A stretch of 49,516 bases of DNA from Prolixibacteraceae bacterium. Its GTDB lineage: Bacteria; Bacteroidota; Bacteroidia; Bacteroidales; Prolixibacteraceae. The stretch's first letter is position 1; every line of letters begins with the position of its first letter. Both the position numbers and the translations under genes were made by a program. The stretch spans positions 1 through 49,516 of the forward strand of contig JANXYV010000128.1 of NCBI GenBank assembly GCA_025355875.1, read 5' to 3'. Below are positions 5,358 to 17,319 of this stretch, in pieces. Below the pieces are notes generated by a model that did no database searches, was not told the DNA's origin, and worked only from the letters and a program-made list of their open reading frames with translations.

Positions 5358-6752
5358 TTAATTATAAACTTCTTTGAGAATCCTGAATTTTTCTTTCCAT
5401 TTTTCGAACCATCCACTGCTGCTTCCGACATGAATAAACGGGACATTTTTTACCCGAAACCATGCCTTTTGTTTCAGAATACCGGCAATTGGTTTCGCTA
5501 ACTGATTGCCAGTGATGGTGCATTTCGCTTTTTTAAATTCCATGCCCAGCAACAAATCGACCGGGCTGATCAAATCGAGTTCGCATTTCAAATGAAAAAT
5601 CTGATCTTCATACACAAAATCACTTTCGAAGGTTAATACGTGTTCAATCTGATCCAGAATTACCCGATTGTTATAGGTTGAAATCCTGTATTCGTCTGAA
5701 TCAATGGAGATGGAAGCATAGGCACGTAAAACCAACTCATTATCAGTCAGCCTGAAATTAAAATTGATATTGAGGCAGAAATTTGCCGGATTGAACTTCC
5801 ATTCCAGGCTTCCGGCAAATTGCGACCTGAAATTCAGAGAAGCTCCCGGCTCTTTCATTAGTGTTGCCTTATAATCAAGCGGTACACCCTTTTCCGATCT
5901 TTGCTGAAGGTAACTTTTTGCATCGGCATAGCCCCGGTTAATCAGTTCGTCGACATTGATTTTGTTGAACATTAAATCCGGATCCAGAGGCAATGGAAAC
6001 TCCGGCTTAATCACATGCAGTACTGTCTGTTCCCTTTCCGGCTTTGCATTGTTCAGCTTTTTCAGTTGCTCCAATTCAAGCAGCAATCCGCCATCTGCGC
6101 TGATTTCAATCATGTGTACATACTGAAGAAAAGTGCCGTCTAAAAATTCGTGCGAGTTGCCGATGGCCCATACCAGCCATATTTCCTTTGGGTTTCGTTT
6201 CAGTGCTTCTGTGATATTTGCATCTTTTATCCAAACCGCGTCGGTGTACCAATCGCCGTTAATTTTTACTGCGGGCATAAATATGGGCAGCGACATACCC
6301 GCCACCAGATGCTGCAAAGTCACATTCCGGTTAGAAAAAACTTCAATAGTTTTCTTTGAAAAGTTGCACACATTGAAAGTGGCATCAATGTTGGTGTTGG
6401 CATTCATCCTGGGAACATCGATTCCCAATGTCGGATAGACCTTGTTGATAATTCCATCAGCATTGCCAAAGGCTACAAATTTACTTTTCGAGAAATAACT
6501 CCGAAAAGGAAGAAGTGACGTAAAATTCATTACGTTGACCTTTCTCCACCGGGTGGCCATGTCACGCGGTTCAATTTCAGAACTGAGCATGGCCGTATTA
6601 AAAATTCCTCCGGATGTTCCGTCGAAATGGTTGAAGCTCAAACTCTCCTCTTCCAAAGCGATGATAACACCTGCCTGATAGGAAAGCCGGGCTCCTCCGC
6701 CGGCAAGGATCAGCGAACGATGAATTTCGGTTCTATTTGAAATTATTTTCAC
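5358..6752 (-). CDS. Patatin-like phospholipase
   Basis: A 464-residue patatin-family lipid acyl hydrolase. The oxyanion motif G18-G-G-A-R22 is followed by the nucleophile elbow G45-T-S47-G-G, and the partner aspartate is in DWYTDAVW near residue 170, so the Ser-Asp dyad looks intact. The C-terminal 150 residues form a beta-rich region not typical of minimal patatins, possibly a substrate- or membrane-associating domain. No signal peptide is seen. The start ATG overlaps the stop of the upstream small membrane protein in an ATGA arrangement, indicating translational coupling. Its place between membrane-associated genes and a GMC oxidoreductase suggests it releases a fatty acyl chain from a lipid that the operon processes further. 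Confidence 0.88.
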   Translation of the reverse strand: MKIISNRTEIHRSLILAGGGARLSYQAGVIIALEEESLSFNHFDGTSGGIFNTAMLSSEIEPRDMATRWRKVNVMNFTSLLPFRSYFSKSKFVAFGNADGIINKVYPTLGIDVPRMNANTNIDATFNVCNFSKKTIEVFSNRNVTLQHLVAGMSLPIFMPAVKINGDWYTDAVWIKDANITEALKRNPKEIWLVWAIGNSHEFLDGTFLQYVHMIEISADGGLLLELEQLKKLNNAKPEREQTVLHVIKPEFPLPLDPDLMFNKINVDELINRGYADAKSYLQQRSEKGVPLDYKATLMKEPGASLNFRSQFAGSLEWKFNPANFCLNINFNFRLTDNELVLRAYASISIDSDEYRISTYNNRVILDQIEHVLTFESDFVYEDQIFHLKCELDLISPVDLLLGMEFKKAKCTITGNQLAKPIAGILKQKAWFRVKNVPFIHVGSSSGWFEKWKEKFRILKEVYN

Positions 6753-9860: not shown

Positions 9861-10724
9861 CTATGTATATATCCAGGATTCACTGTATAATTCATTCTTT
9901 CTGATTTTCCACTTGTACCTCACAGCAATGAAGCCCAATGAAACCAGAAAAGTAAGGCAAGCCATAAATTGCCCGGTTGAAAGATTGCCTACCCATCCAC
10001 GGTTTTCATCTCCCCTGAAAAATTCAATCATAAACCTTAAAACTGAATAACTCATCCAAAAGAGAAAGAACAGAACTCCTGGCTTAAACAGGTCCTTTTT
10101 CCATAAAGCTGAAAAGAGAATAAAAAGGATTAATCCTTTCAAAACACAATAAAGCTGAACAGGGTGAATAGGCAATGAAAGAATGTCAGCCGAACTGATT
10201 AATCCTTTGTTCAGATGATCGAAATAAGCATAACTGCCAAGAGGATATTGCACCGCCCAGGGCAGATTGCTCAATGTTCCGTAATCACAGCCATTCAGGA
10301 AGCAGGCAAAACGACCAACCATTGGACCAATTCCCAGAACTGATCCAATGACATCAAGATATTTCCAAAGAGAAATCCGGTATAATATTCCATACAAAAC
10401 AATTCCGGCAATTCCTCCAAGGTAAACTCCAAACGAAACGGTCGCTCCATTGAGTTCCGTCAAAATTTCAGGATGAGAATACGTGTAACTGATATTTTGA
10501 ACCAAGTAAAATATCCGGGCTCCGAAAGCTGCCGCAATCGATCCCCACAGAGCAATTCCTGCTGCATGATGGGTGTCCAGACCCGACGATTTACACCGTT
10601 TCAGCAACACAACGATTCCCAATCCGAGCATGATGGCATACACCACAGACGGATCGGGAATCAGATAACTGAATATACCCGTGTGAAACAGATGATTAAA
10701 ATACTCAATGAGCCTCGGACGCAT
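9861..10724 (-). CDS. Divergent prolipoprotein diacylglyceryl transferase (Lgt) family protein
   Basis: A 287-residue polytopic membrane protein with seven or so hydrophobic segments. Lgt signatures are recognisable: G137-R-FACFLN144-G-C-D-Y-G149 in place of the usual GRxGNFxNxE, HPVQLY at 187-192, and R230-FMIE234-FFRGDENRG followed by STGQ. The segment that in E. coli Lgt reads HGG reads VYLGG here (Y101), so the usual His is missing. The NGC-x-YG and RGDE-RG forms resemble Lgt paralogues of Deltaproteobacteria-type genomes. It starts 15 nt after the M36 peptidase stop and is probably co-transcribed. It may be a dedicated lipid-transferase or sorting partner of that peptidase rather than the housekeeping Lgt, though it could also be the only Lgt of the genome. 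Confidence 0.8.
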   Translation of the reverse strand: MRPRLIEYFNHLFHTGIFSYLIPDPSVVYAIMLGLGIVVLLKRCKSSGLDTHHAAGIALWGSIAAAFGARIFYLVQNISYTYSHPEILTELNGATVSFGVYLGGIAGIVLYGILYRISLWKYLDVIGSVLGIGPMVGRFACFLNGCDYGTLSNLPWAVQYPLGSYAYFDHLNKGLISSADILSLPIHPVQLYCVLKGLILFILFSALWKKDLFKPGVLFFLFWMSYSVLRFMIEFFRGDENRGWVGNLSTGQFMACLTFLVSLGFIAVRYKWKIRKNELYSESWIYT

Positions 10725-10739
10725 AGTTCACTTCCTGTG

Positions 10740-13163
10740 TTATGATTTTTTAGTTTTTCTTCTTCGGTAAACAATTAATCCGACCAGCGGAAGAAGAGGA
10801 ATCAAAGCCATTTTGGATGAGGATGTTGATGCGGAAGCAGTACATGAACAATCTTTTGTGCCTGTACCGTTAATGGCAGCCCTTCCTACCGGAACATCGA
10901 CACCGAGAAAATTATTCCCGGGTTTCCATGAATACCTCTGATTCGCTCCTGAAGCATCCTGAGTGGTCACTCTGAAAAAAAGGTCGCTTCCTGTTTTCAA
11001 GGTATTCCAGTCGGCTACCGGCATTGTGTAAGTTGCTGTGCCTCCTGCGGCTGATACTACTCCTCCTATCCAGGCACTTGTTAAATGATTGACTGTGAAT
11101 GCTTCGTCATTGGCCACTTCAAATTGAAACTGTGTATTAAATGGAAGTGTCCCTCCGGTTATCACGGTACTCCCCGAAAACGTATAATCATTTCCGGTCC
11201 AAACGGTGAATACCGGGCCAGTTGCATTATTCCGGTTTAAATACGAATGGTCGATATCGACAATGGCATCCTTGGGCGATAAAAAGATTCCGGCCCGGGC
11301 ATATCCGGCAAGTAATTTATGAACCAGGCGCGAAGATTTATAAAGCGGAGCCAGTTGCTTCAATAAATCGAGGTAAGAATCGTGTATTGATTTGTCGGTT
11401 CCGTCCAAAAGCACGCCAACTCCGGCAGTAGTCATTGCCTTTATGGTATTCAAATTAATACTCAGAGTTCCAAGGTCGAAGGCATCATTCATTCCCTGGC
11501 GCGAGCTCCATTGGGCCCACGAAACGATTTGCCCGGCTGAGTGAACTTCGTTGGAAGCATCGGTTAAATTTTTATGCTCCGGAAATACATCCAAAGGTTC
11601 GGAAGCTCTTGGGCACCAACCACTTTGAGTTGCTGATGCACAATTGTGTCCCCACCATCCGGCAAAAACATTGGTGTCAAAATTGGTACAGGCCCAAAAA
11701 TCAGCCAGCCCCTCATTGATGGCACCGGTCATGGAACCGCCGCCAACACTGTATTGCAGGCCATTTAACCGGTGTCCGAATTCGTGGGCGATAACCGTTC
11801 CGTCACATCCGGCATTAAAAACTGCGACACCTGCACCTGCAGGGTTACAAAGCGTGGAAGCGGAAGTAGTGGCATCACCGATATGAAAAGCGGGTGGACA
11901 ACAAAATGAATTTCCTCCAACCTTGTTAAATGTCACATCCACCTGACCAAAGTCCTGACTTCCCAGAAGCATATAGGTCTTTCTTTCATTAAAAATGTGA
12001 GCATAAATATTCACCTGCTGGAAGAGTCCGTTATAACCGGTCTGACTGGTTCTTTCAACGGTGGTTCCGTTTATCGGCGAAACATTAAAATTTGCGGTAC
12101 CTGAACCATCATCTGGAACGGTTACAATTCCTGAAGTGCCGTCGGTTCCCACATTGGTCAGGGTAACAACTCCGCTATTTTTCAGGGTATATACACCTCC
12201 GGAAGAAGCATCGACATCAAAAGTCATTTCACGGGTTGGCGAATTCGGATCGGGATAAAAGGCCAATCCTTTTGCATTATCAAAAAAGAACAAGGGAAAC
12301 AATTGAAGCACTTTTCCTGAATCAGCGTCGATCCAAACCTGGTAGTCTCCTTCAGCGGTTACTTCAGTCTTCCATGCATATTTAAAACCTTCGGCATACG
12401 GAAGCAAGACGATTTCACCGGTATTTTTTGCTTTTACTACCTCGACTTTATTTTCCGATCTGATCTGGGCAATGGCTTTTGCAGTAGCATCTTTCAGTGA
12501 CAGCGTTTTACCGTTTGTTGGTTTCACGTTATTATAAAACTTGCCGTGAAGGGAAACTATTTCATTCTCGTTCCGGTTGGTAATGCTGATTGCGGTGTTG
12601 TCGATAAGAACATTATCGAAATATTGGTCGAAACGGTAAATGGAAACCGTGACATTCGACTGCCGTTTCAGTTCATTTCCCAATTCATTCAGCATGTTGT
12701 CGGAAGATGTGCTGACATCCAGCATTTCCCGTTTTATTTTCTCTTTGGTGGTTTGCTTACCCACCCGGATCTGTTCATCAATGTAGGTGCCATTCGATTT
12801 TGCCGTAGTTGCCTCAATGTTTAAGCGCATTTCTCTATCCAGTCGTAACGGGCTTTTCAGCGATTCGAGGAAGGTCGAAATAACTTTCTTCGCATCATCC
12901 GGAGATTTCACATATTGCCCGTTGATATTAATCTGGAAATTTTCTCCTTCGTAGGTCGGAAGTTGCCCACCGGCATTTTTGAAAGGTACTTGTTCCAACC
13001 GGTATTCCACCGGAGGTCTGCGTTCTTCCGGAACAAAAACCTGTTTGATTTTGTAATTCGACTCAAGACCAGGCGTATTGGGCTGTGAATATGCCGATGA
13101 ACCTGTAATTGCCATCATCAAAATCGTGTTGGCAATTAGTTTCAAAATAGGATTGTGTTTCAT
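10740..13163 (-). CDS. Secreted M36 (fungalysin-type) metallopeptidase with Cys-containing C-terminal anchor
   Basis: An 807-residue protein with an N-terminal signal peptide (cleavage near AYSQ), then a fungalysin/thermolysin propeptide domain (about 80-290), then the M36 catalytic domain. The zinc site is H460-E-F-G-H464 with E484 in INEGLADFW as third ligand, so the enzyme should be active. A beta-rich region follows (about 655-765). The C-terminus has three parts: a D771-C-S-C774 motif, a hydrophobic segment of about 14 residues, and a basic RRRKTKK tail. This is not a T9SS domain or LPXTG; it most resembles Cys-containing CTERM signals such as MYXO-CTERM. It lies 84 nt downstream of a 96-residue ORF and just upstream of an Lgt-family gene. 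It probably degrades extracellular protein while anchored at the surface. Confidence 0.88.
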   Translation of the reverse strand: MKHNPILKLIANTILMMAITGSSAYSQPNTPGLESNYKIKQVFVPEERRPPVEYRLEQVPFKNAGGQLPTYEGENFQININGQYVKSPDDAKKVISTFLESLKSPLRLDREMRLNIEATTAKSNGTYIDEQIRVGKQTTKEKIKREMLDVSTSSDNMLNELGNELKRQSNVTVSIYRFDQYFDNVLIDNTAISITNRNENEIVSLHGKFYNNVKPTNGKTLSLKDATAKAIAQIRSENKVEVVKAKNTGEIVLLPYAEGFKYAWKTEVTAEGDYQVWIDADSGKVLQLFPLFFFDNAKGLAFYPDPNSPTREMTFDVDASSGGVYTLKNSGVVTLTNVGTDGTSGIVTVPDDGSGTANFNVSPINGTTVERTSQTGYNGLFQQVNIYAHIFNERKTYMLLGSQDFGQVDVTFNKVGGNSFCCPPAFHIGDATTSASTLCNPAGAGVAVFNAGCDGTVIAHEFGHRLNGLQYSVGGGSMTGAINEGLADFWACTNFDTNVFAGWWGHNCASATQSGWCPRASEPLDVFPEHKNLTDASNEVHSAGQIVSWAQWSSRQGMNDAFDLGTLSINLNTIKAMTTAGVGVLLDGTDKSIHDSYLDLLKQLAPLYKSSRLVHKLLAGYARAGIFLSPKDAIVDIDHSYLNRNNATGPVFTVWTGNDYTFSGSTVITGGTLPFNTQFQFEVANDEAFTVNHLTSAWIGGVVSAAGGTATYTMPVADWNTLKTGSDLFFRVTTQDASGANQRYSWKPGNNFLGVDVPVGRAAINGTGTKDCSCTASASTSSSKMALIPLLPLVGLIVYRRRKTKKS

Positions 13164-13546: not shown

Positions 13547-13831
13547 TTATTTGTCGATTAATTTAAATAGCAGGCACGCAGTGCCTGAAAGTGCAAGCCA
13601 TACGATGATTCCCTGAATCCATTCGTGGCATAGAAAAATGGCGAATGGTATGGCTATCCATAAGCTGAGGCAAAAAAAGCAATCGAGCAGGTTTCCGAAG
13701 AAACCTTGCCCGAATAACTTTCTGAATTTAATCACTGCATCAAATGGACCATCTTCTTGTGACAACAAATGCGTAATTCTCCAAATCGCAAGTGCACAGA
13801 TACTAAATGATGCAATGTCGATAGTAATCAT
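13547..13831 (-). CDS. DUF1360 membrane protein
   Basis: A 94-residue protein with the DUF1360 pattern: [19 protein letters not shown] near the N-terminus, then a G-rich turn and [15 protein letters not shown], which contains a CxxC pair. Two or three hydrophobic segments place it in the inner membrane. Its start overlaps the stop of the 763-residue gene by ATGA, a sign of translational coupling and of a stoichiometric partner. The family's function is not established. In this operon it is the only evident membrane component between large proteins without signal peptides, so it could anchor or export them; that is inference. Confidence 0.8.
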
Positions 13832-16119
13832 GGGTTTAGTCGTTCCATCATTATCTGTCCGTATGCCTGATAAGTGCCGGAAATACCTGAGTTATAACCG
13901 TTGGTTACCCGCTGGTTTGCAGTTAATGAGAATGAATAGACCGTAAAGTATTCTCCGGTTTTAATCCATCCATCGCCGATTGCCACAGGTTGTATCTGAA
14001 CACCAACCATTCCGGCGGTACTGTAATCATCAATTGTCCCTTTGTATCCGGGGCACAAAAAGTGGGTATTGACAGAATTACTTCCTCCGGGAAAAGTATG
14101 TCCGCCGGTAAGTGTAAAGTTTCCTTCAATGTTTGCGTTCAGGTCAAGGGCAGTTCCCGGACATCTTCCCATTGACAACACATAATTGTCGACGAATCCT
14201 TCGGGGTCATTGGCTTCGAACGAAAACACGACTGGAGTTTTCATCTGTAAATCGGTAAGGCGATATAAACCGCAGCCTGCATCTACAATGGATGGGTCGT
14301 TCAGGGTGGGTGCAGTCATCTGGAAATTGAGCCCGTTGTTATGAATGAATAGTGCAATTAAATCGGTAACACCCGGAACATGCTGTCCCAAAGAATCGTA
14401 TCCGTCCACCCTGACAAAGAATCTTCCGGGAGTCCGCACACCAGCAACTATATCATAAAGCGCTGTGTTTAGTTGCATATAACGATCGAAATTGGAAAAT
14501 TCCCAATCAATTCCATCGGCAAATATTTCGCGCTGAATGTTGGTATATGCCGGAACTGTACCATTCAATACCCCGCCCACATTCGGATAAAAAGGACCAA
14601 CATCGTCGCCGATGTAATTGGGCAGGTTTCGTTTTGAGAATTTCGGATGTTTGTAATTCTGGCTCACATAACCCAATCCGGAAGTTCCTTCGCGCCAAAT
14701 CTGTATGGTATACCATTTGACCTTGTTATCGGCCGCACTCTTTATTGCATTATACATACAACCCCTCATGTCAATAGTTCCACCCCAGGCAGAACATTCC
14801 ACATTGAATCCGGCCAGCGGACTATTAACTGAAATGATCCCAGTCGATTCGAGGTAATTTGAATTGCCGTGACGGGTCAAATTGGCAGGTAAAGTCGATG
14901 CGGAGGTGTTTTGATTTCCACCGATGAAGATGTTCCCCATGCTCCCGATCAAATTTCCATTGAAGCAGGCCGATGAAACATGGATGGCCGAATCAGGCAG
15001 GCACATATCAATCCGTTTCAGGTTCGGGATGTTGTAATAGGGCGCACTTTCGTACCTGATCTGGAAGGGTGAGTACTCAACAATTTTTACAATAACATCC
15101 GGATACATGACGACATTGACATCTTCGCCCGGAGCAATGTCCGTCGAATCTTCCAATCCCGGGAAAGTCATGTCAAAACTGAAGCGGAAAATATAATTCC
15201 CGTTCATATCGGTAATTGTATCGCCCAGCAAACGCCGGTTTCCCGTTCCGGAGTATGCGCCGCCAGCTAATTCAGCCGCAGACCGGTCATATTCCTCGAA
15301 TGTTAAAGTCAGATTTGAACCGGAATTGGTACGACAGCGTGAATACAAGTCGCCAATATTTTTTGCCAGTTGTATTCTGTCGGAAGACAAAGCCATTGTC
15401 TGTGCCGTCAGATTTGATTGAGAACGAACAAGATTGAAATTCGAAGCTGCAAAATCGGAGTTCATTTCGTTGGCAACTTTCGATGTTTGCTTTTTATCCT
15501 CCACAATAGCCTTGCGGGTATACTGCAGAGATGATTTAGACTGTGTGGCTTCCTGGCTCAAATCAAAAACCATCGGTTTAAAATAGGGTGCAGGGTCGGG
15601 TGGATTTGGATTTACTTTAATTGGTGGAATTCGTTCAGGATAATACTTTTCGATGTAATCGAGTATGAACGGGTTTTTCAATGCTTTTATAAGGCCTGCA
15701 TATGTATCGATCACATAAGGGAACCTGCGGCATGGATTAAAGATACAAGCTCCGCTGTAAAGTGTTACATTTCCGTAAATGATAAAATCGTTGATATTGG
15801 CATACGTTGAGCAAGTCAGGATCAGGTCATTGAAATCGGTATCGCTACCGCCACCATCATCCGACAAAATGTCAAATTCATAAAAGCTTCCGGTTTGATG
15901 CGGAAATTTGAGCTGGGTTTGCGAAGTTCGCCACCCTGTACCGGGATCGTTCTGGATCGCAATTGACCATTGACTGCCGGTTACATAAACAAATGTACCC
16001 GGGACTCCGGAATGTATTCCGTTACCTGTTGAGGCGCCCTGTACAATAAAACGTTGAGCAAAAGCGGCACTTTTTGATTTTACGGTAACTGCCCAATTAC
16101 CTTGCATGGAAATTATCAT
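13828..16119 (-). CDS. Large uncharacterised protein with DUF4114-like calcium motif
   Basis: A 763-residue protein without an obvious signal peptide. The first 115 residues are beta-rich and contain [13 protein letters not shown], resembling the Asp-rich DxDFND motif of DUF4114 domains. Residues 150-240 hold a proline-rich linker and a polar helical stretch. Around 265-330 is a carboxypeptidase-regulatory-like segment ([15 protein letters not shown]). The remainder is beta-rich, with paired cysteines ([13 protein letters not shown]) and a late domain with [15 protein letters not shown], which looks Ig- or cadherin-like. The overall impression is a multidomain adhesive or structural protein. 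It carries the same 20-nt leader as the upstream 374-residue gene and is coupled to DUF1360 by ATGA. A downstream ATG at 16107 is an alternative start. I cannot name a function. Confidence 0.75.
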
Positions 16120-16194: not shown

Positions 16195-17319
16195 TCAAAC
16201 ATTAGTCACATTGGGTGCTACCGGGCAGCATCTGTATTCCTGAGATTTCTCAAGCAGTTCAATCTGTTTTTCAAGCAAATCGTTCTGCAACTTGTGATAT
16301 CTTTCCCTTTCCGGTTCGCAGGTGTTGCAATCATCGAGGCAGCCTTTTACCTGAATGCCCGCAGTTGGTAACGAGAACTCCATTTCAAAATCGAATTTCT
16401 TTTTTAACGCTTTCGATACCTCGCCATTCTCATCAAGAATGCCTGTTGCTATCAGTTCTATGCGCAATTCTTTCAGAATTTCCTGATACATGGCTGGTGA
16501 GATCACCGGTTGGGATACTGTTAAATTATTTGGATTAGATGGGAAAGAGATAATTTCATCAATGCTCACCAATTCAAATTTTAATTCCTGTCTTTTATTC
16601 AGACGATAAAAAATATAAGTCAATGCATGGCAATTGTTCTCATTGCTAAACTCACGCGATGAAGATTCGTAATGATCTTCTGTTTGTCCTTCAGCATGGG
16701 TTCGGGTAGCCACATTACCAATTGATATGGAATGTGCCTGATGAGTGGCATTGACTGCCTGCGTTGCCGAAGCGTGCATATTTGAACTTTGCCTGTTCAG
16801 GTAATCCAGCGTGGAGGTGCTGTTATGATTATTTGATGAGCTGGTACTGCCGTGCACTCCCGGATCAAAGGGATTCAGGCTAATGCCGCCGCCTGCCGAT
16901 CCGTTAAAATCCCAGTGTTGCTTATCTGTTTCAACAGAATGTCCTGACTGGGAATTTTCGAGGTCGCTGTAATAGGATTGAGTTGCTTTCATGAAATACT
17001 GTTCTTCCGACATCTGCTCGCTGCGGTAACTAAGCTGTGTTGAGCTGTCATAAGAAAAGGTGGTCCTTCTGTCAGTAGTGAACAATTTTACTTTTTCGCC
17101 CGGAAGCAAGGTGATGGTATAGGCAGGATCGCCCAATGCAAGACCCTTTGTGCAGCGGGAAAGCCTGAAGCCCAATACAAGCTGTACAACCAACCTTAAG
17201 TCTCTCTTAAAAACAAAAGGATAATTTAAAGTGCGGGTAAAAAAGAAAACATCGCAATTGCCGTCCTTTATTAATTCCGGACAACATGGAATTGTTGATA
17301 ATTGAGTTTTGTCTGACAT
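16195..17319 (-). CDS. Uncharacterised 374-residue protein with low-complexity core and Cys pairs
   Basis: This protein has a folded N-terminal part with an LSRCTKGLALGD segment followed by LLPGEKVKLFTTDRRTTFSY, then a long Ser/Asn/His/Ala/Gln-rich low-complexity region (about 115-225). A conserved-looking stretch (FSNENNCHALTYIFYRLNKRQ) follows, and the C-terminal part contains CLDDCNTCEPE and a coiled coil ending in CCP. Cysteine pairs at both ends suggest metal binding or cross-linking. There is no signal peptide. I recall similar proteins with an LLPGE-x-V/K-LFT motif in unrelated bacteria, but none with a known role. It sits 114 nt after the papain-like peptidase and 75 nt before the 763-residue gene, with which it shares a leader motif. 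It may be a substrate of the peptidase. Confidence 0.72.
   Translation of the reverse strand: MSDKTQLSTIPCCPELIKDGNCDVFFFTRTLNYPFVFKRDLRLVVQLVLGFRLSRCTKGLALGDPAYTITLLPGEKVKLFTTDRRTTFSYDSSTQLSYRSEQMSEEQYFMKATQSYYSDLENSQSGHSVETDKQHWDFNGSAGGGISLNPFDPGVHGSTSSSNNHNSTSTLDYLNRQSSNMHASATQAVNATHQAHSISIGNVATRTHAEGQTEDHYESSSREFSNENNCHALTYIFYRLNKRQELKFELVSIDEIISFPSNPNNLTVSQPVISPAMYQEILKELRIELIATGILDENGEVSKALKKKFDFEMEFSLPTAGIQVKGCLDDCNTCEPERERYHKLQNDLLEKQIELLEKSQEYRCCPVAPNVTNV

Follow-up and report, generated by a model that had tools for sequence, protein, structure and literature searches.

A gluzincin metalloprotease with a cysteine-containing C-terminal tail and its linked Lgt paralogue: a candidate lipidation pair in Bacteroidota

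The window analysed here, a stretch of 49,516 nucleotides, is contig C140 (GenBank JANXYV010000128.1) of a 5.18-Mb Prolixibacteraceae genome, hereafter the home genome. It contains two adjacent genes on the minus strand. One (10740-13163) encodes an 807-residue secreted zinc-metalloprotease of the gluzincin type, with a PepSY/FTP-like propeptide and a Cys-containing tripartite carboxyl terminus, and is conserved in ten loci. The other (9861-10724) encodes a 287-residue membrane enzyme of the Lgt family, a divergent paralogue predicted to be a dedicated diacylglyceryl transferase. The Lgt gene lies downstream, and 15 nt separate the protease stop codon from its start. An initial annotation had placed the two genes in just this way, and had proposed that the paralogue lipidates the C-terminal Cys of its neighbour.

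The protease ends in ...AINGTGTKDCSCTASASTSSSKMALIPLLPLVGLIVYRRRKTKKS, laid out as KDCSC-TASASTSSSK-MALIPLLPLVGLIVY-RRRKTKKS. This ending comprises three elements: the CxC motif, Cys772-Ser-Cys774 (10842-10850, minus strand), which is the predicted lipidation site; the hydrophobic segment MALIPLLPLVGLIVY (residues 785-799; 10767-10811, minus strand), taken from the tail alignment; and the basic tail RRRKTKKS (residues 800-807; 10743-10766, minus strand), predicted to be cytoplasmic. The initial annotation had read the same succession of D-C-S-C, short hydrophobic segment, and RRRKTKK. A filter for tripartite Cys, hydrophobic, and basic tails retains only this protein among 35 non-overlapping open reading frames (ORFs) of at least 100 residues in the window.

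Two distant Bacteroidota lineages yielded ten distinct members of the Lgt clade. A search of 199 genomes recovered the home member and those of 5 of 22 congeners; a contig scan, which used a single-protein query and covered close relatives only, added L021 (its other five loci are redundant). The three distant members came from 395 phylum genomes (L027 and L028) and from 245 genomes of a second class (L038). The genome searches were centred on Bacteroidota, and the close locus matches are labelled as Prolixibacteraceae (three), Bacteroidota, Odoribacter, and Bacteroidales metagenome-assembled genomes.

At every one of the ten loci, the gene immediately before the Lgt, on its strand, encodes this protease with a Cys-x-Cys tripartite tail; the initial annotation had suggested looking for just such a Cys motif in the neighbours of Lgt homologues. 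Six loci have 13-15 nt between the genes and L020 has 320 nt, whereas in the three distant loci the start of the Lgt gene overlaps the protease gene's end. The pair accounts for the only gene families common to both lineages at these loci (ORFs of at least 90 residues, blastp 1e-8); any other neighbour is present in at most 4 of 10. This comparison counted the Lgt itself in nine of ten loci, since an overlap filter removed the copy at L038. Within the home genus, six of 23 genomes carry both protease and Lgt and the remaining 17 carry neither, with no discordant genome at E <= 1e-20.

The initial annotation had named loss of the tail in orthologues as evidence against its proposal; all ten orthologues retain the arrangement of Cys motif, hydrophobic segment, and basic cluster, and both Cys residues and the RR are invariant. 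The last 52-54 residues of the seven Bacteroidales-type members are 75-92% identical to those of the window, and most codon changes in the tail are silent (between the window and L016, for example, 17 are synonymous and 4 non-synonymous). The pattern GxAxINxxGxxxCxCxASA, together with RR, is invariant across both lineages; in the distant members the motif contains a third Cys (QCECAC or QCECSC). Against the home genome, a profile made from the tail finds the protease tail as its sole confident match (8e-37; next E 0.36), and neither this profile nor the MYXO-CTERM model TIGR03901 (E <= 10) finds another protein with the same tail there. Against the 395 phylum genomes, strong matches are confined to three pair genomes. 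Among 15 weak matches (E 2e-4 to 0.02), the 12 inspected include no similar tail ending a protein of at least 100 residues. A tail arisen by chance was rejected on account of the sole confident genome match and the confinement of strong phylum matches to the three pair genomes.

The protease begins with a predicted Sec signal peptide (residues 1-27; 13083-13163, minus strand), as read by eye. It is free of Cys, and thus is not an N-terminal lipoprotein signal. The zinc-binding motif HEFGH (residues 460-464; 11772-11786, minus strand) has the same spacing in all ten homologues, and the third zinc ligand, Glu484 (11712-11714, minus strand), lies 20 residues past the second His in each, so that all ten contain the gluzincin pattern of HExxH and a downstream Glu. 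We take the spacing from HEFGH to Glu to be thermolysin-like. Pfam scans of the ten homologues matched PepSY in all, FTP in three, and Peptidase_M4, weakly, in two. The M36 label given by the initial annotation was not confirmed: none of the ten has a Pfam match to that family at E <= 1. We therefore prefer "gluzincin metalloprotease", which is a safe description from sequence motifs. Searches of the Protein Data Bank gave no usable match, and a predicted model of the protease (pLDDT 40.9) was too poor and was not used.

The type IX secretion system does have cargo in this genome (a protein on contig C90 matches Por_Secre_tail, PF18962, at 43.5 bits), and the protease has no such domain by Pfam, both as the initial annotation had said. 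Sorting by this route was rejected for lack of Por_Secre_tail at the carboxyl terminus.

Protease identity between the two lineages is 42%, falling to 13% in the signal-peptide region. A search of 345 phylum genomes at E <= 1e-10, scoring at most two candidates per genome, returned a single other relative, in genome G451 (L108:1237-3996; 158 bits). This homologue has no C-terminal tail, and its start, ...LSVAFWGC, looks lipobox-like (a single case, read by eye), which suggests an N-terminal lipoprotein. G451 is not among the Lgt matches of the 395-genome phylum search. Absence of the Lgt clade, absence of the tail, and presence of the lipobox-like FWGC are together what one would expect if the underlying requirement is for a lipid anchor. 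This one case also suggests that an enzyme of this type can be attached to a lipid at either end. A distant match to the protease, on a plasmid of Burkholderia (28.8% identity over 32%), was set aside: the 599-residue ORF has no such tail, and no Lgt-clade match lies within 8.8 kb.

Four PF01790 proteins are encoded in the home genome. The initial annotation would have been undercut had the window Lgt been the only copy and unlinked to the protease in relatives; there are three others, and linkage is found in all ten loci. The canonical Lgt, on contig C171, scores 243 bits and keeps the RLGN and SHGG motifs. The window paralogue scores 130.6 bits (cut-off 24.9) and falls below the equivalog cut-offs: 94.7 versus 118.9 for TIGR00544, and 114.6 versus 334 for NF000778. 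The clade profile finds E. coli Lgt (5azb) at 4e-18, and 5azb is also the top Foldseek match of an AlphaFold2 model of the paralogue (E 5.5e-6; TM 0.61; rmsd 8.1), a model with a pLDDT of only 66.8. In a 47-row tree of the Lgt family, the pair clade forms a single group with support of 100/100. The tree omits the canonical C171 protein, which fell below the A4 model threshold (E 1e-3).

The active site was compared in E. coli numbering, with ten clade rows and 37 others: E. coli Lgt; two home-genome fusion proteins; and 34 more distant, second-tier Lgt matches. The C171 protein was left out, and the alignment near Y26/G27, being unsure, was not used. All ten clade members retain R73, G104, D129, R143, N149, G154, R239, E243, and R246, among them the catalytic R143 and R239 and the network residues E243 and R246. 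Three changes are specific to the clade (ten of ten versus none of 37): G99A, G145A/S, and Cys or Gly at E202, a position occupied by Glu in 36 of the other rows and by Asp in one. Other changes are shared more widely. N146C occurs in all ten and in 36 other rows, that is, in each of the 46 rows besides E. coli; H103 is Phe or Trp in all ten, with His kept in 5 of the 37 others; E151 is Cys or Asp in clade members; and Y235 is Phe in the three distant members.

Mutant data excerpted from PMC4728403 have G145A/I/V and G99P inactive in E. coli Lgt, and E202A/L partly active. Excerpts of PMC13251419 describe distant natural Lgt proteins that carry N146C and E151C/D and have Tyr, Trp, or Phe in place of H103; Leptospira interrogans Lgt with N146C restores morphology, and viability only poorly. 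In the same source, the Lgt of B. thetaiotaomicron does not function in E. coli. Catalysis by the paralogue is thus plausible but probably altered. The confinement of G99A, G145A/S, and E202C/G to the clade is as expected for a specialised enzyme, and these changes are compatible with a changed acceptor.

Further Lgt relatives were encountered along the way. Two of the other home-genome copies (L003:1474-3282 and L004:493-2274, on contigs C32 and C192) encode proteins of about 600 residues, in which an N-terminal Lgt domain is fused to some 300 residues that match nothing in Pfam; NGCCFG or GGCCYG replaces the usual NGE motif, and the fused region is strand-rich and barrel-like in appearance, by eye. 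Second-tier matches (80-99 bits) were rejected as candidates: they belong to other Lgt-type families, have other neighbours, and fall outside the pair clade in the tree. Loci were inspected for 7 of 7 such matches from the 395-genome search and for 27 of 36 from the 245-genome search (nine had no locus). Tail-like neighbours there passed only a loose filter and look like ordinary proteins or wrong frames. The loci L039-L065, from genomes of the class that includes the distant pair genome G448, hold a widespread Lgt-like family with the motif R[IL]GCH.[SA]GDGDYG, separate from the pair clade; in several of these loci, the gene directly after the Lgt presumably encodes an RNA methyltransferase. 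The plasmid collection that gave the Burkholderia match held 309 records with Lgt-type genes at less than 60% identity, and viral contigs scanned with the Lgt alignment showed no relatives.

The closest published tail is MYXO-CTERM. Its model, TIGR03901 (cut-off 20), scores the window tail at 15.2 bits, or 14.1 in a whole-genome search. Searches at E <= 10 covered nine pair genomes (that of L021 was left out) and 14 control genomes. In seven of the nine pair genomes the protease tail ranks first, and in the six home-genus genomes it is the sole match, with scores of 14.1-19.7 bits; only in G010, with neighbouring residues in frame, does it exceed the cut-off (20.1). Seven of the 14 controls also have a match, none above the cut-off, and for that reason rank carries more weight here than E-value. 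Among 365 phylum-sample genomes, none has a match above the cut-off, and four have weak matches below it.

The machinery that accompanies such tails elsewhere was sought as well. The home genome encodes four CPBP proteins, all below every myxosortase cut-off: 51.8 bits versus 75 for MrtJ, 44.1 versus 130 for MrtS, and at most 21 for MrtP, MrtX, and MrtC. The search for a CPBP-type myxosortase that the initial annotation had suggested thus gave a negative result in this genome. Its description of a surface protease likewise went unsupported: the type II secretin GspD has no match in the home genome and four congeners, which makes surface exposure by the type II route unlikely in the home lineage. 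All three distant genomes have a weak, partial GspD match, under the cut-off. A periplasmic location, or one at the inner leaflet of the outer membrane, would be the simplest expectation for the protease.

Excerpts of PMC11980579 outline a model in which the MYXO-CTERM Cys is lipidated first, by an unidentified Lgt-like enzyme, and the tail is then cut by the CPBP protease MrtX; Lgt is named there as the leading candidate for the transferase. The MYXO-CTERM/MrtX system of Myxococcota resembles the locus described here in its secreted hydrolases, Cys motif, short hydrophobic segment, and Arg-rich tail (PMC11980579). It differs in several ways: dozens of targets are present per genome, whereas one target was found per home-genus genome; the enzyme is a CPBP protease rather than an Lgt-like protein, in another phylum; and the home genome yielded neither a myxosortase nor, together with the four congeners, GspD. 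The JDVT-CTERM/MrtJ system of beta- and gammaproteobacteria is, according to the same source, a conserved two-gene pair, in which a sorting enzyme adjoins its single Cys-tailed target. Here too the enzyme, MrtJ, is a CPBP intramembrane protease, whereas the partner at our locus is an Lgt-family transferase. The pair would thus mirror MrtJ and JDVT-CTERM, with the linked enzyme representing instead the first step, lipidation.

Housekeeping Lgt shares with the paralogue the PF01790 family, the 5azb fold, and the catalytic arginines. In contrast, the paralogue does not reach the equivalog cut-offs, forms its own clade with G99A, G145A/S, and E202C/G, and has a predicted substrate that presents a C-terminal Cys in type I topology in place of the N-terminal lipobox. 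To our knowledge, the signature motifs of GlyGly-CTERM and PEP-CTERM contain no Cys. These too are tripartite C-terminal sorting tags (PMC11980579, in part), but their enzymes, rhombosortase and exosortase, are unrelated to the Lgt paralogue. Among the matches listed by a full-text literature search, none links a C-terminal Cys tag to an Lgt paralogue.

Our working model is as follows. The protease would be exported by Sec, and its hydrophobic segment and basic tail would halt it in the inner membrane, the CxC motif facing the periplasm. The Lgt paralogue would then move diacylglyceryl from phosphatidylglycerol to C772 or C774, leaving the protease held to the membrane through a lipid near its carboxyl terminus. 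Afterwards the transmembrane tail might be retained, or a housekeeping intramembrane protease, perhaps one of the CPBP proteins, might cut it off.

The evidence is comparative throughout, and on it we consider it probable that the two genes constitute a one-enzyme, one-target pair for C-terminal cysteine lipidation, in which the linked partner is a predicted lipid transferase. For a stronger claim the chances seem to us evenly balanced: that this Lgt lipidates a C-terminal Cys in type I topology without a dedicated intramembrane protease, as a minimal two-gene Bacteroidota system and the first natural enzyme-substrate pair of the Lgt family and a Cys-type CTERM tag. The idea of a dedicated pair in the initial annotation is strongly supported, then, by linkage in ten of ten loci, the presence pattern in 23 genomes, the CxC tail, and the three other Lgt copies; its M36 and surface-exposure components are not.

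Several observations weigh against the dedicated pair. The tail has no classical lipobox, and its topology is inverted relative to lipoproteins. Most TIGR03901 matches to the tail fall below the cut-off, and two of the three distant genomes (G448 and G253) give none at E <= 10. Across the full 47-residue tail, identity between lineages is 46%, versus 45% for the protein average; the 21-residue motif part reaches 61%, as do 19% of equal-size windows. No tail-removing protease is linked to the pair, and no home CPBP protein scores as a myxosortase. Residues reported as essential to the E. coli enzyme (PMC4728403; PMC13251419) are altered: H103, N146, G99, and G145 in all ten members, and Y235 in the three distant ones. 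Of the 17 home-genus genomes counted as having neither gene, three are less than 90% complete. Two lineages of a single phylum account for all known carriers of the pair, and so the ten linked loci may represent just two or a few independent histories. Moreover, E. coli given MrtX cleaves MYXO-CTERM (PMC11980579, in part), so a dedicated transferase may be unnecessary in general.

That last result bears directly on one alternative: a MYXO-CTERM-like tail lipidated by the main Lgt and cut by a home CPBP protein, with the paralogue acting elsewhere, on another protein or a lipid. In E. coli, housekeeping enzymes suffice for cleavage by MrtX, and the home genome supplies the canonical Lgt and four CPBP proteins. 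This account leaves unexplained why the Lgt clade is found solely beside the protease, with matching presence in 23 genomes, and would require cleavage by CPBP proteins that score at most 51.8 bits against the MrtJ cut-off of 75, and far less for MrtX, MrtC, and MrtP. We regard it as unlikely. A simpler arrangement, in which the tail serves simply to anchor the carboxyl terminus in the membrane, its Cys form a disulfide or bind metal, and the Lgt gene shares the operon but has no direct link, must contend with linkage that is kept in two lineages while all other neighbours differ, with the rank of the tail as top MYXO-CTERM match in seven of nine pair genomes, and with the tail-less G451 homologue, which resembles an N-terminal lipoprotein (one case, by eye). 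A hydrophobic segment followed by RRR would be a sufficient stop-transfer anchor, and the three motif Cys of the distant members (QCECAC or QCECSC) could suit disulfides or metal; even so, this arrangement seems quite improbable.

The remaining alternative concerns the enzyme: the paralogue may have lost diacylglyceryl transfer, and be a partner that is non-catalytic or acts in a different way, for example a membrane chaperone or an acyltransferase with another donor. All of H103, N146, G99, G145, and E202 are changed, and among the E. coli mutants G145A and G99P are inactive, E202A/L only partly active (PMC4728403, in part). Yet R143, R239, E243, and R246 are invariant in the clade; N146C is the rule in the table outside E. 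coli; and N146C with E151C/D and H103F/W/Y occurs in distant natural Lgt proteins, of which the N146C L. interrogans enzyme partly complements (PMC13251419, in part). We rate loss of transfer as quite improbable too, and prefer C-terminal lipidation by the linked paralogue.

The surroundings of the pair vary. Upstream in the window lie a gene (13828-16119) for a 763-residue protein without any Pfam match and another (16195-17319) for a 374-residue protein with insignificant matches only; within the sequence stretches examined, homologues of both were found at one of the nine other pair loci (L016). A papain-family gene (PF00112; 17434-18354) lies farther upstream, within a few kb of the pair, with homologues in L017, L019, and L021. 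Such a gene is thus near the pair in four of the seven Bacteroidales-type loci, and the pair often lies close to other secreted-protease-type genes. In L020, the 320-nt gap (5678-5997) contains nested inverted repeats (51-nt arms, 73%; 18-nt arms, 94%), and looks like a small mobile insertion that parted the pair.

The MYXO-CTERM model needs a lipid transferase for the tail Cys. The pair locus offers an Lgt-family protein inherited with a Cys-CTERM-like protein, and a natural pair of one enzyme and one target would make the transferase question directly testable with two genes in a laboratory strain. More broadly, these findings suggest that additional copies of Lgt can become specialised for substrates other than lipobox lipoproteins.

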